A stretch of DNA of 64,000 nt from Sphingomonas psychrotolerans (GTDB lineage Bacteria; Pseudomonadota; Alphaproteobacteria; Sphingomonadales; Sphingomonadaceae): contig NZ_CP024923.1 of the NCBI RefSeq assembly GCF_002796605.1, positions 4,471,501-4,535,500 on the forward strand, read 5' to 3'. The notes beneath the pieces were generated by a model, which did not search any database, had not been told where the DNA came from, and saw nothing but the letters and a program-made list of their open reading frames with translations. Every line of letters begins with the position of its first letter. Position 1 is the stretch's first letter. Below are positions 21,717 to 37,658 of this stretch, one piece after another. The position numbers and the translations under genes are program-made.

Positions 21717-21802
21717 GTGCTGCTCCCTGTGACGGTGAATTGACGGGACACTAGGCGGAGCAGAGTTGCCGGTAGAATGCGCATGATGTGCAAATTCTGG
21801 CA

Positions 21803-21814
21803 GTCAAATTTGAC
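21803..21814. promoter_or_regulatory. Palindrome between ocd-like and Lrp genes
   Basis: GTCAAATTTGAC is a perfect 12-bp palindrome within an AT-rich stretch (21790-21845) of the divergent promoter region. A second AT-rich pair, CAAATT (21791) and AATTTG (21815), flanks it. Lrp/AsnC regulators commonly bind such sites next to their own gene, so it is a candidate Lrp operator. Confidence 0.5.
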
Positions 21815-21844
21815 AATTTGTGATGTCTGGTTGAGCATATTGTC

Positions 21845-22270
21845 ATGCAGCATCTCGACGAGCTCGATCGACGGATCATCGCGGTTCTCCGCGGCGACGG
21901 GCGTGCGCCGGTCGCCAAGATCGCCAGCATGCTGCAGGTGTCGCGCGCGACCGTGCAGGCGCGGCTCGACCGGCTGCTCGATACCGGCATGATCCTGGGG
22001 TTCACGGTGCGCGTGCAGGAGCCCGGCGGCGCGGAATCGCTGCGCGCGGTGATGATGATCGAAGTCGCCGGCCGCTCCACGTCAGCGATCATCCGCCGCC
22101 TGCGCAGCTTTCCCGAGATCCGCGCGCTCCACACCACCAATGGCGGTTGGGACCTGGTCGCCGAGATCGTCGCCGAGGGGCTTCAAGGGTTCGACCGCGT
22201 TCTGCGCGAGATCCGCGCGATCGAGGGAATCCTCAACAGCGAGACCAGCATCCTGCTGAGCAGCGCCTGA
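21845..22270 (+). CDS. Lrp/AsnC family transcriptional regulator
   Basis: The product has 141 residues: an N-terminal helix-turn-helix (LDRRIIAVLRGDGRAPVAKI, then MLQVSRATVQARLDRLLDTG) and a C-terminal RAM ligand-sensing domain (VMMIEVAGRSTSAIIRRL through GWDLVAEIVAEGLQGFDRVLREIR). Length and order are typical. Such regulators sense amino acids. Its position, divergent from an ornithine cyclodeaminase gene, suggests it controls that gene in response to ornithine, arginine or proline, by inference. Confidence 0.9.
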   Translation: MQHLDELDRRIIAVLRGDGRAPVAKIASMLQVSRATVQARLDRLLDTGMILGFTVRVQEPGGAESLRAVMMIEVAGRSTSAIIRRLRSFPEIRALHTTNGGWDLVAEIVAEGLQGFDRVLREIRAIEGILNSETSILLSSA

Positions 22271-22322
22271 CGCCGCCGTCACGCCGCTGCCGATGCAAGC
22301 GGGCGTGCGGCGGCGCGCATGT

Positions 22323-24053
22323 TCAGCGGCCGAGCGGCTGGAGCTTGCCGAACACTTCGCGGCCCTGGAACAGAGTGAGCAGGACTTTGGTCGAATGGAT
22401 CTGCCGCACCGGGGTCTCGAACAGATTGCGGTCGAGCACGATGATGTCGGCGCTCTTGCCCGGCGCGAGCGAGCCGGTCTGCTTGTCGAGGTGATTCACA
22501 TAAGCGACGTTGAGCGTATAGGCCCGCAGCGCCTGCGCCAGCGTGATCCGCTCGCCGGCGCCGAGCGGGGGACGATCGCCCTCCGGCGCGACGCGCGTGA
22601 GTGCCACTTCGATGCCCTCCATCGGATTGGCCGACGCCACCGACCAGTCGGCGCCATAAGCCAGCCGCCCGCCGAAGCGCAGCACGCTTCCCGAGGGGTA
22701 GATATAGGTGGCGCGTTTGGGGCCGATCCGCTCGATCGCGAGGTCCATATAGGCCTCGTTGCACGCCCAGAGCGGCTGGAAGATCGCCGTGACGTCGAGC
22801 TTGCCGAAGCGCGGCTGATCGGCCGGATCGATGACGTTCATGTGCGAGATCATCGGGCGCGTATCGTGGGCGCCGCCGGACCTGCGGGCGCTTTCGACCG
22901 CGTCGAGCGCCTGGCGGACGCCGGCGTCGCCGATCGCGTGGAAATGCGACTGCATGTTGCGGGCGTCGAGCTGCGCCACGGCTGCGGCGAGCGCGTCGGG
23001 GGTGATCTGGGTCGCGCCCTTGACGTCGGTGCCCTCATAGGGCGCGAGCATCGCCGCGGTCTGCTGCGGAATGACGCCGTCGATGAAGAATTTCACGCCA
23101 TTGGCGGTGAGCCCGATTTCGCGGGCGCGGGCCGAGAGCTTGACGATGTCGGGCATCTGATCGAGCCCGCGATCGTTGTTCCAGTGGAGGTCCATCACGG
23201 TGTGAGCGGTGAGCGCGCCGCGATCCTTGACGGCTTTGTACGCATCGAGTGCCTTGCTGGTGCCGCCCTTGTCCCACTCGACCGACGCGTCGTGCCACGA
23301 GGTGATGCCGAGGCTGTTGAACAGCGTCACCGTATAGGTGATCGCGCCTTCGAGGTCCTTCGCGGTTGGCGGCGGCACCAGCGGCTCGACCAGAGCCATC
23401 GCCGATTCTTCGAGCGCGCCGACCGGCTCGCCACTGGCGTCGCGGTCGATCGTGCCGTTCTTCGGATCGGGTGTATCGCGGGTGATCTTGGCGAGCTCGA
23501 GCGCCTTCGAGTTCACCCACAAGGTGTGCCCGTCGGATTCGAAGATCAGCGCGCGGTCCTTCGAGACCGAATCGAGCAGTTCCTTGTTGGGGATGCCCTT
23601 TGGCGGGAACAGCGACTGGTTCCAGCCCGAGCCGAAGATCGTGCCGGTGCCCGGCGTCTTCGCCACGCAATCGGCGATGATCCGGCGATAATCGTCCAGC
23701 GTCTTGCCGGCATGGAGCGAGCAGCGGGCATGGCTCATGCCGCCGAAGATCGGATGGGCATGCGCATCGCCGAACGCCGGCATCACGAAACGCCCGCCGA
23801 GATCGACGACGCGGGTCGCCGTGCCCTTGCGCCTGGCCACGTCCGCCGCTGAACCGACCGCGAGGATCTTGCCGTCCTTGATCGCCACTGCCTCGGCCCA
23901 GGGCTGGCCGGTCTCGACGGTATAGATCCTCGCATTCGTCAGGATCAGATCGGCGGTCGGGGCCGTGGGCGCGGGGGCGGCACCGATCGCGAGCAGCGCC
24001 GCGCCTGCCAGCAGCAGGCGGGTTTTGGGGAGACGGGGCGTGGTGCGGTTCAT
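22323..24053 (-). CDS. Exported amidohydrolase, YtcJ-like (amidohydrolase 3)
   Basis: This 576-residue protein has an N-terminal signal peptide (LLLAGAALLAIGAAPAPT) and the YtcJ-type TIM-barrel amidohydrolase pattern. The metal-site motif AFGDAHAHPIFGG, then GSGWNQSLFPPKG, MDLHWNNDRG, HFHAIGDAG and the C-terminal GADWSV and APGKSADIIVLDRN are visible. The family hydrolyses C-N bonds in cyclic or acylated amines. The start is ATG at 24053; the frame runs further upstream into the TBDR gene without meaning. It lies 65 bases downstream of a TBDR on the same strand and is probably co-transcribed with it. Confidence 0.9.
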   Translation of the reverse strand: MNRTTPRLPKTRLLLAGAALLAIGAAPAPTAPTADLILTNARIYTVETGQPWAEAVAIKDGKILAVGSAADVARRKGTATRVVDLGGRFVMPAFGDAHAHPIFGGMSHARCSLHAGKTLDDYRRIIADCVAKTPGTGTIFGSGWNQSLFPPKGIPNKELLDSVSKDRALIFESDGHTLWVNSKALELAKITRDTPDPKNGTIDRDASGEPVGALEESAMALVEPLVPPPTAKDLEGAITYTVTLFNSLGITSWHDASVEWDKGGTSKALDAYKAVKDRGALTAHTVMDLHWNNDRGLDQMPDIVKLSARAREIGLTANGVKFFIDGVIPQQTAAMLAPYEGTDVKGATQITPDALAAAVAQLDARNMQSHFHAIGDAGVRQALDAVESARRSGGAHDTRPMISHMNVIDPADQPRFGKLDVTAIFQPLWACNEAYMDLAIERIGPKRATYIYPSGSVLRFGGRLAYGADWSVASANPMEGIEVALTRVAPEGDRPPLGAGERITLAQALRAYTLNVAYVNHLDKQTGSLAPGKSADIIVLDRNLFETPVRQIHSTKVLLTLFQGREVFGKLQPLGR

Positions 24054-24118: not shown

Positions 24119-26227
24119 TCAGAAACGGCGGCGCAGCGAGGCGAGGACCGTGCGATCCTTGCCGAGGTAGCAATAGCCTTCGTTGATCGCGCCGGCGGAG
24201 TAGCTGCAGTTGGTGTAGACCTTCTCGTCGAAGATGTTGGCGCCGTTCACCGATAGCGACCATTTGCCGTAGCTGAGCTCGAGCATGGCATCGGCCAGCG
24301 TCACCGGATCGACCCGGTAGAGCTGGTCGAAGCTGACCTTGTCGCTTTGATAGCGCACCCCGGCGCCGACCTTGACGCTGAGATCACCCCCCAGGTCGAA
24401 CCGCTTCGACGTCCAGACCGATGCCTGATGCTCGGGCAGATTCTCGCGCCGATCGCCGCGCAGTCGGCCATCGACGACCAAATATTCGGCGCGGGTATAG
24501 CTGTACGAGGCAGTAACGTCGAAATCGGCCGGCAGCTTGAGCTTGGCTTCGGCCTCGACGCCGCGCGAACGGGTCGAGCCGCCCTGGATGAAGTTCTGCA
24601 GTTCGTTCGGGTCGGCGATCAGGACATTCTGTTCCTTGATGTCATAGGCCGCGACGGTGAACAGCATCCGCGACGAAGGCTGGAACTTGATGCCCGCTTC
24701 GTACTGGCGGCCCGACCGCGGGACATAGGCCACGCCGAAGAAGTTCGATCCGAACACCGGCAGGAACGATTCCGAATAATTGAAATAGGGCGACACGCCC
24801 TTGACCAGATCGGCGATGATGCCGCCGCGGAACGTCCACGCCTTGTTGCTTTCCAGCTGCACGTTGTTGACGTTCGACTTCACATTGTCGTGCCGCGCGC
24901 CGAAGACGAGCGACACCCGGTCCCAGGCGCGGATCTGGTCCTGGAAATAGAAGCCGGTCTGCGAATTCTTGGTGTCCGTGGTCCAGCCCACGCCCGTGGC
25001 GAACGGCACGCCGTACACCGGCGCATAGAGATTGAGCCCCGGCGCGGCGCCGAAGCCTTCCTCCTTGTCCTCACGGAACTCGGTATAGTCGAACCCGGCG
25101 AGGATCTGGTGCTCCAGCGGTCCGGTGCCGAAGCTCAGCACGAGATTATTGTCGCTGTTGAGGCCGGTATATTGGGCGCGGTTCAGATACCAGGCGCGGT
25201 TGGCGATGGTGCGGCCCGCGTCGGCATAGGCGCCCCCGAAGCCGGTATAGCCGAACACTTCCTGATAGTCGGTGTCCTGCTCGAAGGTGCGGTTGCGGCT
25301 GTTGAAGGTCAAATTGTCGTTGAAACGGTGCGTCACCAGCAGCGACAGCGCATAATGGCTCGAGCGGGTATGGTTGAAGTCCGGCTCGCCCAGATAGAAA
25401 TCGTCGGAGATACGCGTGGCGCCGCTGCCGTCGACGGTCTTGCTGGTCGGCAGATAGGTCTGGCTGCCCAGCTTGTCGCGCTGATATAGCCCGATAAAGG
25501 TCACTTCGGTGTCCGGGCCCGGCCTGAGAGTGACTGCCGGCATGACCGTGATGCGATCGTTCTTCTGCCCCGGCTGCTGCAGGTCCGCGTCGCGGTACAG
25601 GCCGACGAGCCGCGCCGAGACGCCGTCGACGATCGGGCCGGTGACGTCGAGCTGCGCCTGCTTGTAATCGTCGGTGCCGTAGGTGATGCCGATCTCGCCG
25701 CCGAAATTTTCCTGCGGCCGCTTGCTGATCGAATTCAGGATGCCGCCCGCGCCACCGCCGCCGTACAAGGTCGACGAAGGGCCGCGCAGCAGCTCGGCGC
25801 GCTCGACGGTGAAGATTTCCAGCCGTCCGCCATAGATGAAGCCCGGCATGCGATTGAGGCCGTCGAGATATTGCTCGGCGCCGGTGCCGCGCACCGCGAG
25901 GAAGTCGCCGCGGGTGTCGACGCCGTTCAGCTCGCTGGTGGCACCCGCGCTGTAGCGGATGACGTCCTGCAAATTGACGGCTGCGCGATCCTGGAAATCC
26001 TCGCTGGTGATGACGCTCACCGACTGCGGGACCTGAGTCAGCGGCGTATCGGTCTTGGTGCCTGAAAGCGCGCTGCCGGTCACGACGATGTCATCTTCGC
26101 CGTTCACATCCGGCGCGTCCTGGGCCAGCGCCGCATGCGACCAGGCCAGCATGCCGCAGGCCGACAGCAGCGCCAGCCGCAGTCGCTTCGCTCTGAGGGA
26201 ACCGCGTATCTCGAACTGCCGTACCAT
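24119..26227 (-). CDS. TonB-dependent siderophore-type receptor
   Basis: The 702-residue receptor has a signal peptide (LLSACGMLAWSHAALA), a TonB-box-like segment (DDIVVTG) and the siderophore-receptor plug pattern (TPLTQVPQSVSVITSEDF, LQDVIRYSAGA, ERAELLRGPSSTLYGGGGA). A barrel follows, ending in ASLRRRF with terminal phenylalanine. Sequence class is FhuA/FpvA-like, but many such receptors in sphingomonads serve other substrates. The start at 26227 follows AAGGGG. Its placement before an amidohydrolase and after a LAL regulator suggests uptake of an organic nitrogen compound rather than iron. Confidence 0.9.
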   Translation of the reverse strand: MVRQFEIRGSLRAKRLRLALLSACGMLAWSHAALAQDAPDVNGEDDIVVTGSALSGTKTDTPLTQVPQSVSVITSEDFQDRAAVNLQDVIRYSAGATSELNGVDTRGDFLAVRGTGAEQYLDGLNRMPGFIYGGRLEIFTVERAELLRGPSSTLYGGGGAGGILNSISKRPQENFGGEIGITYGTDDYKQAQLDVTGPIVDGVSARLVGLYRDADLQQPGQKNDRITVMPAVTLRPGPDTEVTFIGLYQRDKLGSQTYLPTSKTVDGSGATRISDDFYLGEPDFNHTRSSHYALSLLVTHRFNDNLTFNSRNRTFEQDTDYQEVFGYTGFGGAYADAGRTIANRAWYLNRAQYTGLNSDNNLVLSFGTGPLEHQILAGFDYTEFREDKEEGFGAAPGLNLYAPVYGVPFATGVGWTTDTKNSQTGFYFQDQIRAWDRVSLVFGARHDNVKSNVNNVQLESNKAWTFRGGIIADLVKGVSPYFNYSESFLPVFGSNFFGVAYVPRSGRQYEAGIKFQPSSRMLFTVAAYDIKEQNVLIADPNELQNFIQGGSTRSRGVEAEAKLKLPADFDVTASYSYTRAEYLVVDGRLRGDRRENLPEHQASVWTSKRFDLGGDLSVKVGAGVRYQSDKVSFDQLYRVDPVTLADAMLELSYGKWSLSVNGANIFDEKVYTNCSYSAGAINEGYCYLGKDRTVLASLRRRF

Positions 26228-26349
26228 ATGCCACCCCTTGTGAAGTCGTTGTGATGTCGTTGTCGAACGCCGGCGCGCAGTGCGTTGTGTGCGCCAGTCC
26301 TCCCATCGGCATTCAACAACACGGGCGCGGCAACGCCACGCGCAAATCA

Positions 26350-26378
26350 GGGTAAGCAAGGGGTGAAGATGGGTAAGC
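26350..26378. promoter_or_regulatory. Direct repeat GGGTAAGC (21-bp period) upstream of the TBDR
   Basis: Two identical 8-mers GGGTAAGC stand at 26350-26357 and 26371-26378. Read in the direction of the leftward TBDR gene they are GCTTACCC repeats about 120 bases before its start. The same TTACCC core with the same 21-bp period occurs at 29189-29218 before the hydantoinase operon. A binding site for the intervening LAL regulator is inferred. Confidence 0.55.
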
Positions 26379-26397
26379 CCGTAGAGACAAGCGGGTG

Positions 26398-29127
26398 TCA
26401 GGCGGCGGGCGGATCGGCGCCCGGCAGAAAGCCGCGCTCGCGCGAGACGCGTACCGCGTCGCGGCGCTTGTTGACCCCGATCTTGCGGAAAACCGATTTG
26501 AGCCGGTATTTTACCGTGTCCGGCGACATGCCGATCAGCCGGGCGATCTCCTTGTTCGAATAACCGTAGCTCAGATGCGCGAGGATCGCCGTTTCGGCTG
26601 GGTTGAGAGCGTCGTCGTCCGCCGGCGCCGCGGCGCGGATGGCGACGGCGCGAGAGAGATTGCGCAGGAACTGGGCGCGGAAGCGATCGATCCGCGGCGC
26701 GCCGCCAAGCGCCGCCTCGACCAGCTCACGCGAGAAGCGCCGCGCATCGACGAAAGGGCGGACCACGCCCTGGAACATCGCCACGCCGACCGCCTCGTCG
26801 AAACAAGCCTGTGCGCGGGCCGCGTCGCCCGCCTGACGCAAGCCATGTGCGCGGAGCAGATTGACGTCGATCAGCAGCCGGCCCGCGCCGTGCTGGCTGG
26901 CCCAGCGGTGCATATGCGCGAGATCGGCGAGCGCGGTCACGTGATCGCCGTCCAGCAGATGCAATTGCGCGCGGCACATGGCAGCGGCCACCGCCACTGC
27001 GCGATAGCGCGGCGATTCCGAGCGCATCGGCTCCGCAAGCGCGTCGAGCCCGATGCGCTCGGCCAATGCCCTTGCAGGGGCGATGTCCGGCGCGTGGTGG
27101 AGCAGCAGCTCGAGCTCGCATAGATCGGTGAGCAAGGTGAGCTGGTGGAAGCGCCGGCGCTCGGCGGTGCGCCGGGCGCGATCGAGCAATGCCTGCGCGG
27201 CGGCAAGCGCGCCGTCGCCGGCCGCCGCGCGGGCGGCAGTGAAATAAGCTGCGGCGTAGACGTCGACCCAGCCGTCGAACAATTCCATGTGCGGCAGCGC
27301 CCATTCGAGCAAGGCGAGCGCCTCCGGCGCGCGGTCCTGCTCGTAGAGCAATTCCGCCTCGAACGCCGCGCAATTGGCCGCGAGGTCCGATCGCGGGCCG
27401 AAGCCGCGTTCGATTTCATCGCGAGCATCGGCGAGGATCACGGCGGCGTCCTGCATGCGGCCCTGGGCGCGCTTGATCCGCGCCTCGTGGAAGCGCGTGA
27501 ACAGGTCCGAATAAAGCGAGCCGAGCGCCTGATAATGCTCGCGCGCGGCGAGCGTCGGTTCGAGCGCACGCTCCAGCCAGCCGCCTTCATAATATTTGGC
27601 GCCCAGCGTTTCGTAGAAATTGGCGAGCACCAGATGATCGTCGGCCGGCAGCGTGCGGAGCAGCGCCTCGCGCTCGAGCAAGGTCTCGAACGTCATCGGC
27701 AGATTCTCATATTCGACCAGCACATCGCCGACGACGCGGATCTCGGTCCATAGATCGGCGGAGAGATCGGGGTCTGCGGTCGCGACGAAGCGATCGAACT
27801 CGGCGCGGGCGACTTCCATCTGGCCGCGCTTCACTTCGAGATAGATGCTCGCCAGCAACAGCCGCGGGCGCGCCGCGATGGTGGCGGCAGGCAATTCGGC
27901 GAGGCCGCGCTCGACCATGCCCTGAAAGCCCTGCGGGATCAGCCGCCAGCCGCCGGCATCCTCGAGCACCGTCGCCAGCAGTGCGTCGTCACTCGCCTGG
28001 ACGGCGTGATCGACCGCTTCGACCACTTCGCCCCGCTCGGCGAACCACAAGGCCGCCCGCCGCTGCAGCGTGCGGAACAATGCGGCATCGCCGCGGGCGA
28101 GGCGCTCGCGCAGATATTCGGCGAAGAGCTGATGATAGCGATAGGCTTGGCGATCGGGCGAAACCGGGGTGAGCACCACGCCTTGCTGCTCGAGCCTTTC
28201 GAGCAGCAGCCAGCCGTCCTGGCGATCGCACAGCAAATTGATCGTGTCGCCGGTGAGATGGTCGAGCAACGCGGTGCGCAGGACGACTTGCTGAGTTTCC
28301 TCGGGCAGCGTCATCAGCACTTGCTCGGAAAGGTAGCGTGCGAGTTCCGAACTCGCGCCGCTGAAATGCGCGACGAGCTGGCGGGGGTCGGCGCCGCGCT
28401 TCAAGGAGAGCGCAGTGAGCTGGAGCGCGATCGCCCAGCCTTCGGTGCGCTCGACGATGCGCGCCACGTCTTCGCCCGCGAGCGTCGCGCCGTCGCCGCG
28501 CGCGAGCAGCGCCCCTGCTTCCTCGGCAGAGAATTTGAGGTCCTCGGCATGGAGCTCGAGCAATTGCTCTTCGGCAGCGAGGAGCGACTGGCCGAGCCAC
28601 GGATAATCGCGCGAGGCGACGATGAAGTGGCAGTTGGGCGGCGCGAGCTGGATCAGCGCCTTGAGGAACTCGCCGACCGGCGCGCCTTCGGCGAGATGGA
28701 GATCGTCGAGAATCAGCACCACCCGGCGCGGTTCGCGCGCGAGGCGATTGATGATCGCGGACAAGGCCGCGCGCGGCGGCAGATCGGCGAGCTTGCGTTC
28801 GCCCTCGGCATCCATGCCGTCCACCGCGAGCGCGATATATTGGGCGAGGCGCCCGGGATCGGCATCGTCGCGTTCGAGAGTCAGCCACGCGACCAGCGTC
28901 GCGTCGCCGTCGACCCGGGCGCGCCACTGCGAAAGCAGGCTGGTCTTGCCGTAGCCGGCGGGGGCGTGGATGAGCGTGAGGCGCCGCGCCAGCGCCCCAT
29001 CGAGCCGCGCGAGCAGCGCATCGCGCCGCACCTGGTTCCCCATCCAGGCGGGGGGCGCGATCTTCGTGGGGATCAGTTCATCCACTTTGCCGTCCTGTCG
29101 CCAAGGCTCCTCGTCGCTTTCCGGCAT
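26398..29127 (-). CDS. MalT-like LAL regulator (ATPase + LuxR HTH)
   Basis: This is a 909-residue transcription factor with a Walker A motif (HAPAGYGKTSL, Lys about residue 61) and a Walker B region (VVLILDDLHL, about residues 134-143). A winged-helix segment, a long TPR-like helical region (about 400-780) and a C-terminal LuxR HTH (about 840-900: LNPAETAILAHLSYGYSNKEI, then IGMSPDTVKYRL) follow. LAL/STAND activators oligomerise on ATP and effector binding and activate catabolic promoters. GGAGCGGG precedes the ATG. It is flanked on both sides by TTACCC direct repeats and is the likely activator of both adjacent operons. Confidence 0.92.
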   Translation of the reverse strand: MPESDEEPWRQDGKVDELIPTKIAPPAWMGNQVRRDALLARLDGALARRLTLIHAPAGYGKTSLLSQWRARVDGDATLVAWLTLERDDADPGRLAQYIALAVDGMDAEGERKLADLPPRAALSAIINRLAREPRRVVLILDDLHLAEGAPVGEFLKALIQLAPPNCHFIVASRDYPWLGQSLLAAEEQLLELHAEDLKFSAEEAGALLARGDGATLAGEDVARIVERTEGWAIALQLTALSLKRGADPRQLVAHFSGASSELARYLSEQVLMTLPEETQQVVLRTALLDHLTGDTINLLCDRQDGWLLLERLEQQGVVLTPVSPDRQAYRYHQLFAEYLRERLARGDAALFRTLQRRAALWFAERGEVVEAVDHAVQASDDALLATVLEDAGGWRLIPQGFQGMVERGLAELPAATIAARPRLLLASIYLEVKRGQMEVARAEFDRFVATADPDLSADLWTEIRVVGDVLVEYENLPMTFETLLEREALLRTLPADDHLVLANFYETLGAKYYEGGWLERALEPTLAAREHYQALGSLYSDLFTRFHEARIKRAQGRMQDAAVILADARDEIERGFGPRSDLAANCAAFEAELLYEQDRAPEALALLEWALPHMELFDGWVDVYAAAYFTAARAAAGDGALAAAQALLDRARRTAERRRFHQLTLLTDLCELELLLHHAPDIAPARALAERIGLDALAEPMRSESPRYRAVAVAAAMCRAQLHLLDGDHVTALADLAHMHRWASQHGAGRLLIDVNLLRAHGLRQAGDAARAQACFDEAVGVAMFQGVVRPFVDARRFSRELVEAALGGAPRIDRFRAQFLRNLSRAVAIRAAAPADDDALNPAETAILAHLSYGYSNKEIARLIGMSPDTVKYRLKSVFRKIGVNKRRDAVRVSRERGFLPGADPPAA

Positions 29128-29188
29128 CCCGCTCCGCCGGGAAGTCTAGGCGTGGAATTGCGGTGCGCTCAAGGCCGCCACGACAAGA

Positions 29189-29218
29189 ATTACCCGATTG
29201 GGCGGGCCGATTACCCGA
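29189..29218. promoter_or_regulatory. Direct repeat ATTACCCGA (21-bp period) upstream of the hydantoinase operon
   Basis: Two identical 9-mers ATTACCCGA lie at 29189-29197 and 29210-29218, two helical turns apart. The second copy ends 90 bases before the GTG of the hydantoinase gene, and the first copy starts 61 bases from the start of the divergent LAL gene. The core and spacing match the repeat at 26350-26378. A LAL-regulator binding site is inferred. Confidence 0.6.
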
Positions 29219-29308
29219 ACCACCTGTTCCCGCACCCGTTTTACGAGTTGCGCGGCGAACGACGCGGCACCTACCCACAAGGGGTTACCGGGGCAGGAGT
29301 TGAGGTCA

Positions 29309-30934
29309 GTGCGCATTGGTGTCGATGTGGGGGGCACGAATACCGACGCCGTGCTGATGGACGGGAGCGACGTGCGCGCCTGGACCAAGCAGCCGACCAC
29401 CGCCGATGTGAGCTCGGGAGTCGCAGCGGCGATCACGGTCGTGCTGGAGCAGGCCGGGGTGGCGCCGGGCGCGATCGCATCGGTGATGATCGGCACCACC
29501 CATTTCGCCAACGCTTTGGTCGAGCGCAACCAGCTCGACCGGGTCGGGGTGCTCCGGCTGGCGAGCCCCTCGGGCGAGGCGCTGCCGCCGATGACCGGCT
29601 GGCCGGCCGACCTGACCGCGCGGATCGGCGACCATGTCTTCCTGCTTCCTGGCGGCTATGAAATGGACGGGCGCGAGATCGCGCCGCTCGACGAGACCAG
29701 GGTCCGCGACGCCGCGCTCACCTTGCGGTCGGCGGGCGTCGACGCGATAGCGATCAGCTGCGCCTTCGCGCCGATCAACGCGGCGATGGAAGACCGCGCC
29801 GCACAGATCGTGCGGCAGGTGCATCCGGACGCCGTGGTCACCGTCTCCAATGCGATCGGCCGGATCGGTTTCATCGAGCGCGAGAATGCGGCGATCCTCA
29901 ATACCGCACTGACCAGCCTTGCGGGCCGGGTGATTGCGTCTTTCGAGCGGGCGCTGGCGGCGATCGGCGTATCCGCGCCGCTCTATATCTCGCAGAATGA
30001 CGGTACCTTGATCTCGGCGGCGCAGGCGGCGACCTATCCGGTGCTGACGATCGGATCGGGGCCGACCAACTCGATGCGCGGCGCCGCCTTCCTGACCGGC
30101 GTTACCGACGCGATCGTGATGGATGTCGGCGGCACCACCACCGATGTCGGCGTGCTGGTGGGCGGCTTCCCGCGCGAATCCTCGATCGCAGTCGATATCG
30201 GCGGGGTGCGCACCAATTTCCGCATGCCCGACATCCTCGCGATTGGGCTGGGGGGTGGTACGCGGGTGCATCTCGATCCGGCGCTGTATGGAGCGGTGGC
30301 GCTCGACGCGGCGGCGCTGCGGGTTGGTCCGGACTCGGTCGGCTTCCGCATCGCCGAGGATGCGATGCTGTTCGGCGGGGCCACGCTGACGACGAGCGAC
30401 GTGGCGGTCGCCACCGGCCGTGCCGCGTTCGGCGATCCGTCGCGCTTGCCTCCGCTGAGCGACGCGGTGTTGCAGACGGTGTGGCAGCGAATCCAGACCA
30501 TGCTGGCCGACACCGTCGACCGCATGAAGACCGCACGCGGCGACGTGACGATACTCGCAGTGGGCGGCGGCAATTTCCTGATTCCGGATACGCTGAAGGG
30601 TGCCGCGAAAGTGATCCGTCCGCCGCATGCGGGGGTGGCCAATGCAGTGGGGGCGGCGATCGCGCAGATCGGCGCGCAGGTCGAGCAACTCGTCAGCTAT
30701 GACAAGGTGCCGCGCGCCACGGTGATCGCGCAGCTGTCCGACGAGGCGCGCGCACGCGTGGCGGCGGCGGGGGGCGATATCGAGAAGGTGCAAATCGTGG
30801 ACGTCGATGAAGTGTTTCTGAGCTATATGCCCGGCCGGGCCGCGCAAGTCCGCGTCCGCGCGGTGAGCGATCTCGTCGAGAACCGCACCACCGGCGCCAC
30901 CCCTGAAACGAGCCTGGCCGCCCATGCGCATTGA
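29309..30934 (+). CDS. Hydantoinase/oxoprolinase family protein (HyuA-like)
   Basis: This 541-residue ATP-dependent hydrolase family member has an acetate/sugar-kinase-like ATPase fold. The N-terminal RIGVDVGGTNTDAVL is the phosphate-1 motif, MIGTTHFANALVER follows, and VMDVGGTTTDVGVLVGG (near residue 270) is the second. The family opens cyclic amides such as hydantoins or 5-oxoproline with ATP hydrolysis. The GTG at 29309 is chosen because AGGAG lies nine bases upstream and the domain begins there. The end overlaps the DUF917 gene by 11 bases; a permease gene follows, giving a three-gene operon. Confidence 0.92.
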   Translation: MRIGVDVGGTNTDAVLMDGSDVRAWTKQPTTADVSSGVAAAITVVLEQAGVAPGAIASVMIGTTHFANALVERNQLDRVGVLRLASPSGEALPPMTGWPADLTARIGDHVFLLPGGYEMDGREIAPLDETRVRDAALTLRSAGVDAIAISCAFAPINAAMEDRAAQIVRQVHPDAVVTVSNAIGRIGFIERENAAILNTALTSLAGRVIASFERALAAIGVSAPLYISQNDGTLISAAQAATYPVLTIGSGPTNSMRGAAFLTGVTDAIVMDVGGTTTDVGVLVGGFPRESSIAVDIGGVRTNFRMPDILAIGLGGGTRVHLDPALYGAVALDAAALRVGPDSVGFRIAEDAMLFGGATLTTSDVAVATGRAAFGDPSRLPPLSDAVLQTVWQRIQTMLADTVDRMKTARGDVTILAVGGGNFLIPDTLKGAAKVIRPPHAGVANAVGAAIAQIGAQVEQLVSYDKVPRATVIAQLSDEARARVAAAGGDIEKVQIVDVDEVFLSYMPGRAAQVRVRAVSDLVENRTTGATPETSLAAHAH

Positions 30935-32024
30935 TCGCGCGGCGCTTGCCGATCTCGCCACCGGCGCGGCCTTTCTGGGATCGGGCGGGGGTGGGGACCC
31001 CTATTATGCCATGCTCCTCGGCGAGGCCGAACTCGCCCGGCGCGGCAGCTTTGAGCTGGTGACGCTCGATGTGTTGGCGGACGACGCGCTGGTCGTGCCG
31101 TGCGGCTGGGTCGGTGCGCCGACAGTCTCGGTCGAGAAGTTGCCGAGCGGCAAGGAGGCGATGGCCGGACTGCTCCGGCTGGAGACGATGCTCGGCCGAA
31201 AGATCGACGCAGTGATGCCGATCGAGATCGGCGGCAGCAACGGGCTGGCGCCCCTCGTCGCCGCCGCCGAGCTGGGAGTGCCGGTGGTCGATGCCGATGG
31301 CATGGGGCGTGCCTTCCCCGAATCGCAGATGGCGATCTTCAACATCCACGGGATATCGGCCTGCCCCTCGGTGGTGACCGCATCGTCGGGATCGCTGACG
31401 GTGATCGAGACCTCGGACAATGTCGAGCATGAGCGGCTGGCGCGTGCGCTGGCGATCGCGCTGGGCGGGATCGCACACATGGTCGAATATCCACTGAGCG
31501 GCGCGCAGGCCAAGGCCTATGCGGTGCCCGGCAGCATTTCGGCGGCGATCGCGATCGGCGCGGCGATCCGGCAGGCGCGCGCGGCGGGCGAGGATCCGTT
31601 CGAGGCGCTGTTCACTGCGCTGTGGGAGGGCGGGCTCTATTCGCATGCGGGAGTGCTGTTCGACGGCAAGATCACCGATCTCGAGCGCGAGACGCGCGGC
31701 GGCTTCTCGGTCGGCCGGATCGTGATCGAGGCGTTCGACGGCCAGTCGCGCGTCGAGGTCGATTTCCAGAACGAGAATCTGCTGGCGCGCCGCGACGGCC
31801 GGATCGTCGCGATGGTGCCTGACATCCTGACGGTGATGGACCGCGAGACCGCCGACAGCATTACTACCGAACGGCTCAAATACGGCCAGCGAGTCAAATT
31901 GGTCGGCGCCGCCGCGCCGGCGATGCTGCGCACCGAACGCGCGCTCGACTTCGTCGGGCCAGGCGCCTTCGGCTATCCCGACGCCTATGTGCCGATCGAG
32001 CAATTGAACGGGTGGGGGGCGTGA
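30924..32024 (+). CDS. DUF917 / S-methyl-thiohydantoin desulfurase-domain protein
   Basis: The product has 366 residues. The N-terminal FLGSGGGGDPYYAMLLGE and later PIEIGGSNGLAPLVAA and DADGMGRAFPESQM are hallmarks of DUF917 (Pfam PF06032). Members almost always accompany hydantoinase/oxoprolinase genes and permeases; the domain has been connected with thiohydantoin desulfurisation. The true substrate here is unknown. It overlaps the upstream hydantoinase gene by 11 bases and the downstream permease gene by four (GTGA), so the three are translated together. Confidence 0.9.
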   Translation: MRIDRAALADLATGAAFLGSGGGGDPYYAMLLGEAELARRGSFELVTLDVLADDALVVPCGWVGAPTVSVEKLPSGKEAMAGLLRLETMLGRKIDAVMPIEIGGSNGLAPLVAAAELGVPVVDADGMGRAFPESQMAIFNIHGISACPSVVTASSGSLTVIETSDNVEHERLARALAIALGGIAHMVEYPLSGAQAKAYAVPGSISAAIAIGAAIRQARAAGEDPFEALFTALWEGGLYSHAGVLFDGKITDLERETRGGFSVGRIVIEAFDGQSRVEVDFQNENLLARRDGRIVAMVPDILTVMDRETADSITTERLKYGQRVKLVGAAAPAMLRTERALDFVGPGAFGYPDAYVPIEQLNGWGA

Positions 32025-33307
32025 CCGAACACGCCGGCGAACTCCACGCGCACAGCCCGGTCCCCGAGGGCGTTACCGTCCCCGGCTGGCGGGTCGGGCT
32101 GATCGTCGCGAGCTTTTCGATCGGGCTGCCGGACTTCCTCAACGGTGCGCACAATGCGTTGGCGCTGGGCTTGTGGGGCGCGGTGAGCGCGGCATTGATC
32201 GCGGCGGTGATCCTGTGCGCCGGGGGGTGCCTCACCGCATTGGTCAGTGTGCGGACGCGGCTATCGACCTATCTGCTCGTCCGCCGTTCGTTCGGCACCG
32301 GCGGCGCGGCGCTGATCAACACCGTGATCGCGCTCATCCATTTCTGCTGGTTCGGCGTAAACGCCTCGTTCTTCGGCGAGGCGATGGTGCAGGCGGCGGA
32401 GGCCAACGGCTTCGCCGGAAACTTCACGCTCTTCGTGATCCTCGGCAGCGCGCTGATGACGGTTTCGACGATCATCGGCTTCAAGGCGCTCGATCGGCTC
32501 GCGGTGGTGGCGGTGCCGGTGCTTGGCGTTATCCTGGCGCTGGTCGTCTGGGCCGCGCTCGATCGCCACGGATTGGTGACGGTCCCCGCCGCCAGCCCGG
32601 CAGAGCCGATGGGCTTCGGCATCGCGATCTCGGCGCTGATCGGCGCCTATATGCTCGCGGTCGCGACGATGCCCGATCTGTCGCGCTATACCCGCACCAC
32701 GCGCGGCGCGATCGCCAGCATGGTGCTGTCCTTCCCCATCGCCACGCCGCTGATGATGACCGCCGCGGCGATCCCCGCGCTGGCGACCTGCGAGACCAGC
32801 ATCATGAAGCTGGTGGTGCAATTCGGCTTCGGCACGCCGGTATTGTTCCTGCTGGTGCTGCCGACCTGGACGGTCAACTCGCTCAACCTCTATTCCTCGA
32901 GCCTGTCGCTCGGCACCACTTTCCCGCGGGTGCGGCCGTGGCTGTTCACAATGCTGGGCGGCACGATGGGCGCCGGCTTTGCGCTGATGGGCATCCTCGA
33001 CGCGTTCATTCCGTTCCTTTTGTTCCTCGGCCTGATCATCCCGCCGATCGCCGCGATCTATGTGATCGACGCGTTCACTACCTGGCGCGACGCCGATTCC
33101 GCCGCGTCCATCGCCGCAGTGCCGCTGGTGCGCTGGCCGGCGCTGGCGACCTGGCTCGGATCGATCGTGGTCGCTGTGCTCGCCGCCTATCAGGGATGGA
33201 CGCTGACCACGGTGCCCGCGCTCGACGCGACGATCTGCGCCGCTTTGGTCTATGCGCTGGTGCGCCGGCGTTTCGCGTCAGCCCGGCCCGGTTCCGACCA
33301 CGCCTGA
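32021..33307 (+). CDS. NCS1 family cytosine/purine permease
   Basis: The 428-residue protein has about 12 hydrophobic segments and the pattern of CodB-like NCS1 carriers (SFSIGLPDFLNGAHNALALG at the first helix, WFGVNASFFGEAM, MPDLSRYTRT). NCS1 carriers import nucleobases, allantoin or hydantoins by cation symport. GTG at 32021 overlaps the DUF917 stop; another GTG nine bases upstream is possible. Its place in the operon suggests it imports the cyclic amide that the hydantoinase opens. The tail overlaps the convergent CoA-transferase gene by 30 bases. Confidence 0.9.
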   Translation: MTEHAGELHAHSPVPEGVTVPGWRVGLIVASFSIGLPDFLNGAHNALALGLWGAVSAALIAAVILCAGGCLTALVSVRTRLSTYLLVRRSFGTGGAALINTVIALIHFCWFGVNASFFGEAMVQAAEANGFAGNFTLFVILGSALMTVSTIIGFKALDRLAVVAVPVLGVILALVVWAALDRHGLVTVPAASPAEPMGFGIAISALIGAYMLAVATMPDLSRYTRTTRGAIASMVLSFPIATPLMMTAAAIPALATCETSIMKLVVQFGFGTPVLFLLVLPTWTVNSLNLYSSSLSLGTTFPRVRPWLFTMLGGTMGAGFALMGILDAFIPFLLFLGLIIPPIAAIYVIDAFTTWRDADSAASIAAVPLVRWPALATWLGSIVVAVLAAYQGWTLTTVPALDATICAALVYALVRRRFASARPGSDHA

Positions 33308-34474
33308 GGCGACCAGCGCCTCGATCGCCGCATCGTCATGTCCGCAGTCGCGCAGCACCGCGCGGCTGTCCGCGCCGATCCCGGCAGGCGGCGCATCGGG
33401 GGCAGGAGATACCGTCTCGAAACGCACCGGCTGCGGCACCATCCGCGCCAACCCGGCGGGATAGACCTCGGGCACGTCGAAGAAGCCGATCTCGGCGAGA
33501 TGCGGATCGTGCAACAGATCGTTGGGCGTCGCGATGCGCGCGCACGGGACATCGCGTGCCGACAGCTTCTCGATCCACGCATCGGTAGTCCGCGCGGGCA
33601 GGCTCTCGGCGAGGATCGCATAGAGGTCGTCGATCCGCGTCTGCCGCGTCCGCGCATCGCGGAACCATGCCTCTTCGCACAGCGCCTCGCGGCCGATCTC
33701 GGCGAGGAAGCGGCGCCATTGTTCGGCGGTATAAGGCAGCACCGCGATCCAGCCATCGGCAGTGCGGAACGGCCGGCGATTGGCCGACAGCACCCGCGGA
33801 TAGCCGGTCGCGCCGTCTTCGGCGAAGCTCGCTTCGGCGAGATGCTCGTTCATCAGGAACGCGACCATCGCCTCGAACATCGGCACTTCGACCCGGAACG
33901 GCCCCGGCTGTCCGCGCTCGCGCGCCACGAGCGCCGCAAGGATGCCGTAGACCGTGTGCAAGGCCGCGACCTTGTCGGCGACGATCGTCGGCACGAATTG
34001 CGGCGCGCCGCCGTGATGCATCGCCAGCCCCGCCATGCCGCTGGCCGCCTGGATGATGTCGTCGAACGCCGGCCGGTCTCGATATTGCCCCGCCTGCCCG
34101 AAGCCGATCGCGGCGCAGTGGACGATGCGCGGGTTGATCGCGGCCACTGCATCGAAGCCCAGCCCCAGCCGCTCGGCCGCATCGACGCGCATATTGTGGA
34201 GCAGCACGTCCGCCGTCCCGATCAGCCGCGCCAGCGCGGCGCGTCCCTCGGCGCGCTTCAGGTCGATCGCGAGCATCCGCTTGTTGCGGTTGTTGTTGAC
34301 GAACAGCGCGCCGCCGCCGGGACCCTGCGGATGCGCGTTGCGGGCGATATCGCCCTCGAGCGGTTCGACTTTGATCACTTCGGCGCCGAGATCGCCGAGG
34401 ATCTGCCCGGCATAGGGGCCGAGCACCACCGCTCCGATTTCGACCACGCGGATGCCCTTGAGCAGCGGAATCAC
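33278..34474 (-). CDS. CaiB/BaiF family CoA-transferase
   Basis: This is a 398-residue class III CoA-transferase. The N-terminal GIRVVEIGAVVLGPYAGQIL and LGAEVIKVEP are the family hallmark. The catalytic aspartate is expected in PAFDDIIQAASG (about residue 150). A C-terminal RPFRTADGWIAVLPYT segment is typical. The family moves CoA between carboxylic acids by a ping-pong mechanism. The start is GTG at 34474 with AGGGAGA upstream; no conserved sequence precedes it. It is divergent from the aldehyde dehydrogenase gene. Confidence 0.9.
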   Translation of the reverse strand: MIPLLKGIRVVEIGAVVLGPYAGQILGDLGAEVIKVEPLEGDIARNAHPQGPGGGALFVNNNRNKRMLAIDLKRAEGRAALARLIGTADVLLHNMRVDAAERLGLGFDAVAAINPRIVHCAAIGFGQAGQYRDRPAFDDIIQAASGMAGLAMHHGGAPQFVPTIVADKVAALHTVYGILAALVARERGQPGPFRVEVPMFEAMVAFLMNEHLAEASFAEDGATGYPRVLSANRRPFRTADGWIAVLPYTAEQWRRFLAEIGREALCEEAWFRDARTRQTRIDDLYAILAESLPARTTDAWIEKLSARDVPCARIATPNDLLHDPHLAEIGFFDVPEVYPAGLARMVPQPVRFETVSPAPDAPPAGIGADSRAVLRDCGHDDAAIEALVASGVVGTGPG

Positions 34475-34494
34475 CGAATCTCTCCCTAAATCTC

Positions 34495-34541
34495 TTGACT
34501 CATGTTTCCATGTGAGGACTAATATGTCCATATATAGAGAC
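34495..34541 (+). promoter_or_regulatory. Candidate promoter and operators before the aldehyde dehydrogenase
   Basis: A -35-like TTGACT (34495) and -10-like TAATAT (34520) are separated by 19 bases, slightly long. Two imperfect palindromes overlap them: CTCATGTTTCCATGTGAG (34499-34516) and GTCCATATATAGAGAC (34526-34541). IclR regulators bind such sites, and an iclR gene lies two genes downstream. The region is distinctly AT-rich. Confidence 0.4.
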
Positions 34542-34560
34542 TATACCGAGAGTGATGTCG

Positions 34561-36027
34561 ATGACCGAGTTCCGCTTCGATCGCCTGTTCATCGGCGGCG
34601 CCTGGGTTGCGCCGATCGACGGCGGGGTGCGTGACAGCGTGGATCCGGCGACCGGCCAGCCATGGACGCAGGTCGCTTATGGGGGTGCGCAGGACATTGA
34701 TCGGGCGGTTGTTGTGGCGCGCGAGGCGTTCGAGGGGCCGTGGCGCAAGATGGCGCCGTGGGAGCGGGCCGGGCTGCTGCGCAAGTTCGCCGAGCTCTAC
34801 GCCACGCAAATCGAGGCGCTGGCGCAAGTCGAATCGCGCGACAATGGCCGCGCGATCCGTGAGTCGCGCGGCGATATCGGACTCCATCCGCAATATTGGC
34901 ACTGGTTCGCCAGCCTCGCCGACAAGGCGGACGGTCGGACGATCCCGATGGACGACAGCGTCCATGCCTTCACGTCGCGGCTGCCGGTGGGTGTGGTCGG
35001 CACGATCACGCCGTGGAACGTGCCGCTGATGGCGGCGACGTGGAAGCTCGGGCCGGCACTGGCGGCGGGATGCACCGTCGTCCTCAAGCCCGCCGAGCAG
35101 ACTCCGGCTTCGTCGCTGGCGCTCGCCGCGTTGTTCGAGCAAGCGGGTTTTCCGCCGGGCGTGGTCAATGTCGTGCCCGGCGATGGTCCCGTTGCCGGCG
35201 CGCATCTCGTCGCGCATCCGGGGGTCGACAAGATCGCCTTCACCGGCGAGGGCGCGACCGCCAAGGCGATCCTCAAGACCGGCGCCGACACGCTCAAGCG
35301 CTTCAGCTTCGAGCTGGGCGGCAAGGCGCCACACATCATTTTCGCGGACGCCGATATCGAGAATGCGGTCAACGCCGCGACCGGATCGGCCTGGGCACTG
35401 TGCGGCCAGAGCTGCGCGCTCGGGAGCCGGGTGCTGGTCGAGCGCCCGGTCTATGACCGCGTCGTCGAGGCGTTTCGCCGCAACGCCGGCCGGGTCCGTG
35501 TCGGCAACCAGATGGACCCCGCCACGCATATGGGTCCGCAGGCGCATGCCGAGCAGCTCGCCAAGACGCTGTCTTATGTCGATATCGGCCGCGACGAGGG
35601 GGCCGAATTGGTCGCGGGTGGGACCCGCATCGGAAGCGAGGGTTATTTCGTCGAGCCCACCGTGTTCGCCGGCGTCGCGCCGCAGATGCGGATCGCGCAG
35701 GAGGAAATCTTCGGCCCGGTCGCCGCGATCATCCCCTTCGACGGCGAGGACGAGGCAGTCGCGATCGCCAACGGCACGCCTTATGGCCTCGCCGCCGGAC
35801 TGTGGACCGGCGATGTCGGCCGCGCGCACCGCGTCGCCAATCGGATCGAGGCCGGCATGGTCTGGGTCAACACCTATCGCTATATCCGCTGGTCCACGCC
35901 TTATGGCGGCGTGAAGACCAGCGGCTGGGGCCGCGAGAACGGCGTCGAGGCGCTCGATTCCTATCTGGAGACGCGCACCACCGTGATCTCCACCACCGGC
36001 AAGTTTGCCGATCCCTTTGCGAATTGA
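34561..36027 (+). CDS. NAD(P)-dependent aldehyde dehydrogenase
   Basis: This 488-residue enzyme has the full ALDH active site: the PWN motif (about residue 151), the general-base glutamate in FELGGKAPH (residue 251) and the nucleophilic cysteine in CGQSCALGSR (residue 285). Near the C-terminus is EIFGPVAAIIPF. ALDHs oxidise aldehydes to acids with NAD(P)+. Of several nearby starts, the ATG at 34561 has GAGAG eight bases upstream. The gene is followed by an SDR gene after 10 bases and is probably co-transcribed with it. Confidence 0.93.
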   Translation: MTEFRFDRLFIGGAWVAPIDGGVRDSVDPATGQPWTQVAYGGAQDIDRAVVVAREAFEGPWRKMAPWERAGLLRKFAELYATQIEALAQVESRDNGRAIRESRGDIGLHPQYWHWFASLADKADGRTIPMDDSVHAFTSRLPVGVVGTITPWNVPLMAATWKLGPALAAGCTVVLKPAEQTPASSLALAALFEQAGFPPGVVNVVPGDGPVAGAHLVAHPGVDKIAFTGEGATAKAILKTGADTLKRFSFELGGKAPHIIFADADIENAVNAATGSAWALCGQSCALGSRVLVERPVYDRVVEAFRRNAGRVRVGNQMDPATHMGPQAHAEQLAKTLSYVDIGRDEGAELVAGGTRIGSEGYFVEPTVFAGVAPQMRIAQEEIFGPVAAIIPFDGEDEAVAIANGTPYGLAAGLWTGDVGRAHRVANRIEAGMVWVNTYRYIRWSTPYGGVKTSGWGRENGVEALDSYLETRTTVISTTGKFADPFAN

Positions 36028-36037
36028 GGAGAGAGTG

Positions 36038-36802
36038 ATGCGCCTTCAGGGCAGGCTGGCGATCGTCACCGCGGCGGCTTCGGGAATGGGCCGGGCAGGG
36101 GTCGAGCGCTTCGTGCGCGAAGGCGCGCAAGTCGCGGCGATCGACATCGACCCGGCGGCGCTCGACGCGCTGGTCGCGGCGTTCGGCGCCGATCGGGTGA
36201 CGGCCATCGCGGCGGACCTGTCGACCCCTGAAGGTGCGCGCGGCAGCATCGATCAGGCGGTGGCGGCTTTGGGCGGTGCCGATATCCTCTGGGCGCATGC
36301 CGGGATGCCGGGGCCGGCATCGGTCGAGAATCTCGATCTCGTCGCCTATCAAAAGGCGATCGACCTCAACATCACCTCCGCCGCGCTCGGCGCGGGGCAG
36401 GTGGCGCCGCACATGCGTGCGCGCGGCGGCGGATCGATCATCTTCACGTCGTCGATCTCGGGACTGGTCGGATCGATGATGAGCCCGATCTATTCGGCGG
36501 CGAAATGGGGCGTGGTCGGTCTCGCCAAGTCGCTTGCGCTGGCGCTCGCCCCCGATGGGATCCGCGTCAATGTGGTGTGCCCGGGCCTTGCCGACACGCC
36601 GATGAAATTGGGCTTCACGGGCCGCAGCGGCGATCCCGCCGAAGCCGCGGCCAACGAGGCGAAGATCGTTGCCGCGGTGCCGCTCGGCCGGCTGGTCAAG
36701 CCGGGGGAGGTAGCCGACGCTGCGCTCTGGCTGGCTTCCGACGAGGCGAGCTTCGTCACCGGCGTGGCATTGCCGGTCGATGGCGGCTTCACGGCGCGCT
36801 GA
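36038..36802 (+). CDS. SDR family oxidoreductase
   Basis: The 254-residue classical short-chain dehydrogenase has the cofactor motif TAAASGMG (residues 11-18) and DIDP, whose aspartate suggests NAD preference. It also has Asn111, the catalytic serine in FTSSISG (about 138) and the YSAAK motif (Tyr152, Lys156). These enzymes interconvert alcohols and ketones. GAGGAGAG precedes the ATG. It follows the aldehyde dehydrogenase closely, so the pair may handle successive oxidation steps of one side chain. Confidence 0.93.
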   Translation: MRLQGRLAIVTAAASGMGRAGVERFVREGAQVAAIDIDPAALDALVAAFGADRVTAIAADLSTPEGARGSIDQAVAALGGADILWAHAGMPGPASVENLDLVAYQKAIDLNITSAALGAGQVAPHMRARGGGSIIFTSSISGLVGSMMSPIYSAAKWGVVGLAKSLALALAPDGIRVNVVCPGLADTPMKLGFTGRSGDPAEAAANEAKIVAAVPLGRLVKPGEVADAALWLASDEASFVTGVALPVDGGFTAR

Positions 36803-36874
36803 GGATGGGGCGGGATCCGGCCAGCGCGCGACACGCTGTTGCCGGGGCCGCGCTTGCGCCATACGGCTCCAATC

Positions 36875-37606
36875 ATGATCGTCCGCCAGGCGGCCAATGC
36901 GCTGCAGATCCTCGAATTCTTCGCCGAGCGGCAGCGACCCGCCAATGCCGCGGAGATCGCCGATGCGATGGGCTGGCCGCGCTCGAGCACGTTCAAGCTG
37001 GTCGGCACGCTGGCAGGGATGGGCTATCTCTACGAGCCGCTGCCGCGCGGCGGCCATTATCCCAGCCCGCGCTGGCTCGAGCTGGCCGAGAAGGTTTCGC
37101 AGGCCGATCCGCTGCCGGCGGAGCTCGGGCCGCTGATCCGCGACGTGATGCAGGAGAGCGGCGAGACCGTGGCGATCTCGGCTCCGGCCGGCGTGCATGC
37201 GATGTTCGTCGCGGTGGCGGAGTCGCGCCAGCCGGTCCGCTATTTCGCGCGGGTCGGCGATCGGGTGCCGATCCATGCCAGCTCGGCCGGGCGCGCCTTG
37301 CTCGCGCAGATGAGCGCGGAGGAACGCCAGGCGCTGTATCGCCGGATAGACTTCACCGATTATTCGGCGACGACGCCGATGACGCCCGGGCGCATCGAGG
37401 ACGATCTGGCCGAGGCGGAGGCGCGCGGCTGGCATCAGAGCAATGCCGAATACACCCCCGATCTCGCCGGCGTGGCACTGCCGCTGGCGTATCCCGATCG
37501 GCGGCTGTCGATCGTGGTGGTCGGCCCGGTGTCGCGCTGCCTCGATCGGCGTGCCGAGACCGCGGCGCTGCTGCAGCGGCATGTGAAGGCGCTTCCCGCG
37601 CGCTGA
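36875..37606 (+). CDS. IclR family transcriptional regulator
   Basis: The 243-residue regulator has an N-terminal winged helix (ANALQILEFFAERQRPANAAEI, then MGWPRSSTFKLVGTLAGMGYL) and a C-terminal effector domain (PIHASSAGRALLAQMSAEE, GVALPLAYPDRRLSIVV). IclR proteins often control aromatic or acid catabolism and sit inside the operons they regulate. Palindromes at 34499-34541 are candidate targets. The ATG at 36875 has a weak ribosome site; another start at 36839 would add 12 residues. Confidence 0.88.
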   Translation: MIVRQAANALQILEFFAERQRPANAAEIADAMGWPRSSTFKLVGTLAGMGYLYEPLPRGGHYPSPRWLELAEKVSQADPLPAELGPLIRDVMQESGETVAISAPAGVHAMFVAVAESRQPVRYFARVGDRVPIHASSAGRALLAQMSAEERQALYRRIDFTDYSATTPMTPGRIEDDLAEAEARGWHQSNAEYTPDLAGVALPLAYPDRRLSIVVVGPVSRCLDRRAETAALLQRHVKALPAR

Positions 37607-37658
37607 AACCATACGAGCCCCGCCCAAAGAGGTGCGGGCCGAACCCGAGAGGAACCCC

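Follow-up and report, generated by a model that had tools for sequence, protein, structure and literature searches.

Two pairs of TTACCC direct repeats flank the gene for a MalT-like regulator in the 64,000-nucleotide stretch of the Sphingomonas psychrotolerans genome analysed here (contig NZ_CP024923.1, positions 4,471,501 to 4,535,500; hereafter the window). We consider it highly likely that the MalT-type (LAL/STAND) activator encoded between these repeats uses them as its operator, and sequence comparison indicates that it very probably binds at the TTACCC pair. Direct observations are the repeats and their conservation, the association they show with both target genes and regulator, the register they keep with promoter-like elements, and the architecture of the regulator. 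An earlier interpretation of the same DNA (the original prediction) had proposed a LAL-controlled regulon; this proposal is supported by the way the pair tracks the targets and by its co-occurrence with the regulator, from which we infer binding and activation.

Paired TTACCC boxes around the regulator gene

GGGTAAGC occurs at positions 26350 and 26371 of the window and ATTACCCGA at 29189 and 29210, each two copies being 21 bp apart. The two pairs were thus confirmed at the exact positions reported earlier, before the operons of a TonB-dependent receptor (TBDR) with an amidohydrolase and of a hydantoinase-like HyuA protein. Read toward the gene it precedes, each pair is TTACCC-N15-TTACCC, in the same orientation relative to its target as had been claimed. 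The left pair lies on the minus strand (26376..26350) before the TBDR-amidohydrolase gene pair, the right one on the plus strand (29190..29216) before the HyuA operon, and the 909-residue MalT-like regulator is indeed encoded between them. The elements of the proposed operator are as follows:

26398-29127, minus strand: LAL/STAND regulator, 909 aa, between the two box pairs, with a P-loop NOD, a MalT-like TPR sensor and a C-terminal LuxR-type helix-turn-helix (HTH)
26371..26376, minus strand: distal TTACCC box of the TBDR promoter, in 19/19 genus orthologous loci
26350..26355, minus strand: proximal TTACCC box at the same TBDR promoter, spaced 21 bp from its distal partner, in 19/19 genus orthologous loci
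26311..26316, minus strand: -10-like hexamer TTGAAT of the TBDR promoter, 33 bp after the proximal box, a candidate from sequence
29190..29195, plus strand: distal TTACCC box of the HyuA promoter, in 19/19 genus orthologous loci
29211..29216, plus strand: middle TTACCC box of the HyuA promoter, in 19/19 genus orthologous loci
29232..29237, plus strand: third, degenerate box GCACCC of the HyuA promoter, 21 bp beyond the middle box
29248..29253, plus strand: putative -35-like element TTGCGC of the HyuA promoter, assigned from a recurrent GTTGC after the third box

TTACCC-N15-TTACCC appeared in none of 100 dinucleotide-preserving shuffles of the window, and the two pairs described above are the only exact 21-bp TTACCC pairs in the 5,038,478-base genome (the reversed control pattern gave one match). 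Since lone TTACCC words occur at chance level in the window (8 against 5.6 +/- 2.7 expected), the signal lies in the spacing of the boxes. A genome scan with one mismatch allowed gave 12 places beyond the two exact pairs, the reversed control giving 94 in all. None is claimed as a further regulon member: 11 fall within a stop-free frame of at least 120 codons, which is not proof of a gene, and the only one outside such a frame (G000:C1:3162062) has an imperfect first box. By eye, no clear TTCAAT-like hexamer stood at 33 bp at any of the 12.

Where orthologous loci have retained the regulator, the repeats are neither missing nor displaced. Searching 295 genomes of the genus with the regulator (E <= 1e-60) returned 22 matches, 19 of which (its own genome included) have a close ortholog, 65-100% identical in the best copy; the other three contain only paralogs of 28-32% identity, and proteins ~30% identical to the regulator were kept out of the ortholog count. 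On each side, every one of the 19 orthologous loci (L016-L034) has an exact TTACCC pair spaced 20 or 21 bp, one per strand. A search for TTACCC-N14-16-TTACCC matched 45 of the 295 genomes, including all 19 with the ortholog. Isolated pairs occur in 26 of the 276 genomes without it, one of these (G011) being a tandem array, and by reading of the match list none of the 276 has two facing pairs within 5 kb. A HyuA ortholog (E <= 1e-150) is present in 19 of the 295 genomes, and these are the same 19 that hold the regulator. Because most loci were found through the regulator, it is this 295-genome co-occurrence that constitutes the unbiased evidence.

Outside the genus, the regulator was found in 8 further genomes of a family sample of 397 and, in a phylum sample of 398 genomes, in none besides its own. 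Eight 20-kb stretches around the regulator in seven other family genomes each contain at least one pair (8/8); the eighth family genome, G597, yielded short loci only, with a pair in L066 and none in L058. Two loci of another class, from the Gammaproteobacteria Pseudoxanthomonas broegbernensis (L009) and Luteimonas marina (L011), have both pairs with boxes 21-22 bp apart, and the pairs are kept even though the TBDRs there are just 42-44% identical. Some genomes hold second and N-terminally short copies of the regulator (G284, in L031, L038 and L040; G493, in L059 and L065), and variant CTACCC boxes surround one of the G284 copies (L038).

Proposed target genes, box spacing and promoter register

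The genes of the two proposed target operons in the window are listed below:

24119..26227, minus strand: TBDR of the siderophore-receptor subfamily TIGR01783, at the head of the left target operon
22323..24053, minus strand: Amidohydro_3 hydrolase, with an N-terminal signal peptide read by eye
29309..30934, plus strand: HyuA-type protein (Hydant_A_N + Hydantoinase_A), at the head of the right target operon
30924..32024, plus strand: S-Me-THD (DUF917) protein, with an 11-nt overlap with HyuA
32012..33307, plus strand: CodB-like NCS1 permease, with a 13-nt overlap with the S-Me-THD gene

Promoters were tallied in 36 loci, the window and near-copies included; the amidohydrolases of G443 and G379 are counted twice (overlaps L070/L107 and L071/L108), and L053-L055, which were fetched for a motif match, as well as L120/L121 were excluded from both this tally and the spacing count. 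A pair precedes HyuA in 27/29 cases (misses L013 and L074), the TBDR in 29/31 (both misses being ~27% identical TBDRs) and the esterase in 13/24. The amidohydrolase has a pair of its own in 4/35 cases (L008, L068, L073 and L118), all without a same-strand TBDR upstream, and lies behind the TBDR on the same strand in most other loci. No pair stands before NCS1 or S-Me-THD (0/29 each), both of which follow HyuA in most loci, or before OCD (0/7). The same holds for CaiB (0/17), ALDH (0/19), SDR (0/20), IclR (0/18) and MFS (0/17); as this cluster never carries the pair, it lies outside the regulon as far as the site tells. In sense orientation, no pair was found before the regulator itself (0/32).

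The pair follows the proposed target genes and not the position of the regulator, as a cis-regulatory site should. In L073 there are no boxes beside the regulator, and the TBDR, the amidohydrolase and HyuA each have them; in L068 the regulator likewise has no adjoining boxes, which instead precede the amidohydrolase and, by eye, a small secreted-type protein (L008 is similar). Test stretches extended this pattern. L107 and L108 contain two TBDRs beyond the earlier stretches, both with a pair, and L118 (G666, contig C16) has one pair each before an amidohydrolase, a TBDR and an esterase. The G666 regulator is encoded on a different contig, at least ~0.7 Mb from both ends of that contig. Also in G666, a TTACCC/CTACCC pair with 20-bp spacing (L120, 5809-5834) precedes a 31%-identical amidohydrolase. 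The two-operon description is apt for this genome; in relatives the member units number at least three.

The spacing is narrowly distributed: 23 loci totalling 489,679 bp contain 56 pairs of TTACCC words no more than 60 bp apart, of which 48 are spaced 20 (13), 21 (29) or 22 (6) bp. Promoter elements were compared for intact-pair promoters of 27 loci, leaving out L006 and L014 (near L005), L013, L051 and L074; column statistics also omit L003, L004, L042, L044 and L071, with 20 HyuA and 19 TBDR promoters remaining. TTCAAT/TTGAAT is the top-scoring -10-like hexamer and lies 33-34 bp after the proximal box in 17/23 TBDR promoters, 4/10 esterase promoters and 2/3 amidohydrolase promoters, the latter two being near-copies. 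At HyuA, a third box (ACCC in register, +20/+21 after the second) is present in 22/25 promoters with an intact pair, and two of its C columns reach 2.0 bits in the 20 non-redundant promoters. Of the three HyuA promoters without a third box, those of L041 and L042 measure 75 bp from box to start codon, versus 90-100 bp in the other 23; here the second TTACCC fills the third-box slot and is followed by the same GTT...GTTGC sequence. This suggests that boxes come and go in whole 21-bp steps, although L041 and L042 look closely related and may represent one event. Extra boxes were also seen at TBDR promoters, namely a TTACCC or CTACCC 8 bp upstream of the distal box (L045, L046 and L048) and, in L011, a single intervening TTACCC 9 bp beyond the first box.

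These distributions bear on what reads the boxes. An IclR gene is present in many of the loci, and the TACC within the word resembles NarL-type half-sites, so that other FixJ/NarL-type factors could read it. The boxes might accordingly be bound by another factor, such as the downstream-encoded IclR-family protein or a global regulator, with the LAL protein a neighbour that has other targets. We regard this as unlikely, given that six loci with a pair have no IclR ortholog in the fetched stretch (L043, L045, L047, L048, L049 and L072), that the IclR-side genes are never preceded by a pair (0 of 17-20 each) and that facing pairs in the genus listing are confined to genomes with a LAL ortholog. 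Likewise, 11 of 12 stretches around LAL paralogs (24-32% identity) are free of TACCC pairs, with three of the stretches (L102, L103 and L106) resting on partial matches that may miss gene ends.

The HyuA boxes sit in a divergent region only ~60 bp from the regulator's start codon, as would suit a LAL protein that binds the boxes but represses, or repeats that act mainly on the regulator's own promoter. Either arrangement is highly improbable: the pair never points toward the regulator, it stays before the targets where the regulator has moved (L073 and L068), the boxes end 33-34 bp upstream of the -10-like hexamer in an activator-like position, and MalT is an activator (PMC10427625). The chance level of lone words in the window and the isolated pairs in ortholog-free genomes might be taken to mean that the repeats are fortuitous, or that they are a widespread promoter feature of no regulatory significance. 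We consider this extremely unlikely in view of the 295-genome distribution, the sharp distance peak at 20-22 bp, the 36-locus tally, the empty shuffles and the conservation across a class boundary; in addition, three test stretches (L107, L108 and L118) showed pairs before the predicted genes, and there were none in L119 or L121.

Several observations weigh against an operator read by the LAL regulator. Most loci were fetched for holding the regulator, so its presence there is by construction. In L013 the regulator is 51% identical and HyuA, S-Me-THD and NCS1 are all retained, yet the pair is not intact: TTACCC is followed 20 bp on by a degenerate second box, AGACCC (read by eye). L074 (regulator 55% identical) has only TTACCC + GCACCC before HyuA. 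The esterase is without a pair in 11/24 cases, including the window and its closest relatives L003 and L004. Neither L119 (G512; amidohydrolases of 54% and 29% identity, an NCS1 of 57%, OCD) nor L121 (G493; two distant amidohydrolases and an esterase) contains a pair. On the HyuA side of the window the -10-like hexamer is weak (TACCCA), and a CTACCC pair occurs inside a gene (L048, MFS). Finally, L039/L056 (G064, contig C1), with a 30% LAL paralog, has a CTACCC pair (21 bp) before an unrelated, repeat-rich protein of 2149 aa.

Regulator architecture and the proposed pathway

Both its sequence and its predicted structure identify the regulator as a MalT-type STAND protein. It has the N-terminal P-loop NOD module and MalT-like TPR sensor domain characteristic of the LAL/MalT type, and it alone among the genome's proteins passes the TPR_MalT cut-off. 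The C-terminal LuxR-type HTH scores 39.8 bits with PF00196 (cut-off 23.5) and matches ComA (2krf/3ulq) by sequence; the structural matches of the regulator do not extend over this domain. With the NCBIfam MalT equivalog NF003420 the protein reaches 306.3 bits versus a cut-off of 537 and is therefore not classed as a MalT ortholog. In an alignment with 34 relatives, hand-picked from 120 listed, the mean column identity is 67%. The whole HTH averages 82% identity and other parts 41-68%, and the 20-residue HTH core (residues 858-877) reaches a mean of 99% identity with the protein of the window, as expected if one DNA word must be read throughout.

Taken in order, the TBDR, the secreted-type amidohydrolase (joined in relatives by an esterase), NCS1, HyuA and S-Me-THD suggest that an amide or N-heterocyclic compound is taken up and degraded stepwise. 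The HyuA protein exceeds the cut-offs of both Pfam domains, Hydant_A_N and Hydantoinase_A (129.2 and 91.7 bits), but none of four NCBIfam matches to characterised equivalogs does so (0/4; the CapA model gives 95.8 bits against 1000). Both Pfam domains are likewise present in the S-Me-THD protein, with equivalog scores of 110.8 vs 450 and 100.5 vs 440. The "ring opening" in the original prediction, for which Pfam family membership speaks, is a reasonable guess and only that, because HyuA and S-Me-THD fall far below every equivalog cut-off matched. The sole match of the NCS1 permease in the Protein Data Bank (PDB) by sequence is cytosine permease (7qoa), and the best PDB matches of the amidohydrolase are uncharacterised hydrolases (3icj/3igh). 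In the open-access literature on DUF917/hydantoinase and on Sphingomonas TBDR with hydantoinase, the matches listed held nothing usable on the substrate. As neither these structure matches nor the literature gave a usable lead, we name no substrate.

Direct binding and activation are proposed here from co-occurrence and knowledge of the family; oligomerisation, inducer, substrate and chemistry are likewise proposals. An inducer would bind the cytoplasmic sensor domain and cause the regulator to oligomerise, whereupon its C-terminal HTH domains would occupy two (TBDR) or three (HyuA) in-phase boxes, 21 bp corresponding to two helical turns. Placed just upstream of the -35/-10 region, the box array would activate both flanking operons. 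The TBDR would then serve outer-membrane uptake, the amidohydrolase (in relatives also the esterase) periplasmic hydrolysis, the NCS1 permease inner-membrane import, and HyuA with S-Me-THD cytoplasmic processing of a nutrient that is probably N-heterocyclic or amide-bearing. Oligomerisation is important for DNA binding by MalT, and the promoter with which this was tested has four sites (PMC10427625), so two or three boxes in phase are in keeping with the family.

A broader proposal, to which we give about even chances, is that these proteins form a distinct LAL subfamily in the Sphingomonadaceae and two Lysobacteraceae (Xanthomonadaceae) genera, in which the 21-bp-periodic TTACCC array is one oligomer-sized unit, gains and loses boxes in 21-bp steps and switches on an outer-membrane-to-cytoplasm nutrient pathway. 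If so, box spacing would report the geometry of the activated STAND oligomer on DNA, and the array would offer a defined-phase DNA template for studying it. The operator, spacing rule, promoter register and target genes of the subfamily can be read from the sequence and are directly testable, and the predicted site provides a means to find unlinked pathway genes and hence the substrate. To our knowledge, operators of LAL/STAND activators are known for few members.

Several neighbouring features were noted. No TTACCC pair was found before OCD or the esterase in this window; in relatives, unlike here, the esterase is often preceded by one. Upstream of OCD, the plus strand at 21720-22280 resembles, by eye, an Lrp/AsnC-family regulator, and OCD and the esterase behind it may have this regulator of their own in the window. 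The CaiB, ALDH, SDR, IclR and MFS genes, at 33278-38981 of the window, lie near the locus in many relatives and may form a later section of the pathway, controlled by IclR. In three genomes (L053, L054 and L055) a pair separates a TBDR of a second type from a distant amidohydrolase (29-30% identical); in L053 a pair also precedes a FAD-oxidoreductase-like protein (both proteins named by eye). These second-type TBDR loci are possible further regulon members.

Comparison with known systems

In the open-access literature (PMC), the matches listed contained no account of a TTACCC operator or regulon. Scattered matches in 8-mer repeat scans of the 12 paralog stretches leave the 21-bp rule unsupported as a general LAL trait. 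Related systems share individual features with the one described here. TpdR, the activator of tetramethylpyrazine degradation in Rhodococcus jostii TMP1, is a LAL regulator of an N-heterocycle catabolic operon with two direct repeats upstream of the promoter; unlike the TTACCC boxes, its repeats are 15 bp long with starts 28 bp apart (coordinates -79 and -51), and the system is actinobacterial (rhodococcal) (PMC6099782). The MalT-like regulator of Actinoplanes sp. SE50/110 similarly has many target promoters in one gene region, but its motif is a palindrome, TCATCC-5nt-GGATGA, that overlaps the -35 (PMC7567727). PimR-type SARP-LAL operators of Streptomyces are also direct-repeat arrays of two to three units; in contrast, these units are heptamers separated by 3-4 bp and recognised by the SARP part, and PimR has no LuxR HTH (PMC5930380).

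The closest parallels are with MalT of Escherichia coli and Klebsiella, which has the same architecture of NOD, TPR sensor and LuxR HTH. Its operator, too, is built from a short box directly repeated close to the -35 region (PMC6099782, PMC7567727), and uptake and catabolic genes are combined in one regulon (PMC10427625). The box itself differs, TTACCC here versus GGGGA(T/G)GAGG for MalT (PMC7567727; no separate window scan was made for the MalT consensus), as do the 20-22 bp spacing and the targets, which are TBDR and HyuA and not maltodextrin genes. The proximal box ends ~33 bp before the -10-like hexamer, placing it near -46 if that is the true -10, compared with -34.5/-35.5 quoted for the 5' end of the MalT box. 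We make no claim of a spacing shared with MalT, because scans of E. coli malP and malE/malK gave overlapping degenerate matches and no clean 21-bp rule. The operator is best filed as MalT-type in its working and new within the LAL family, distinct from that of MalT itself.

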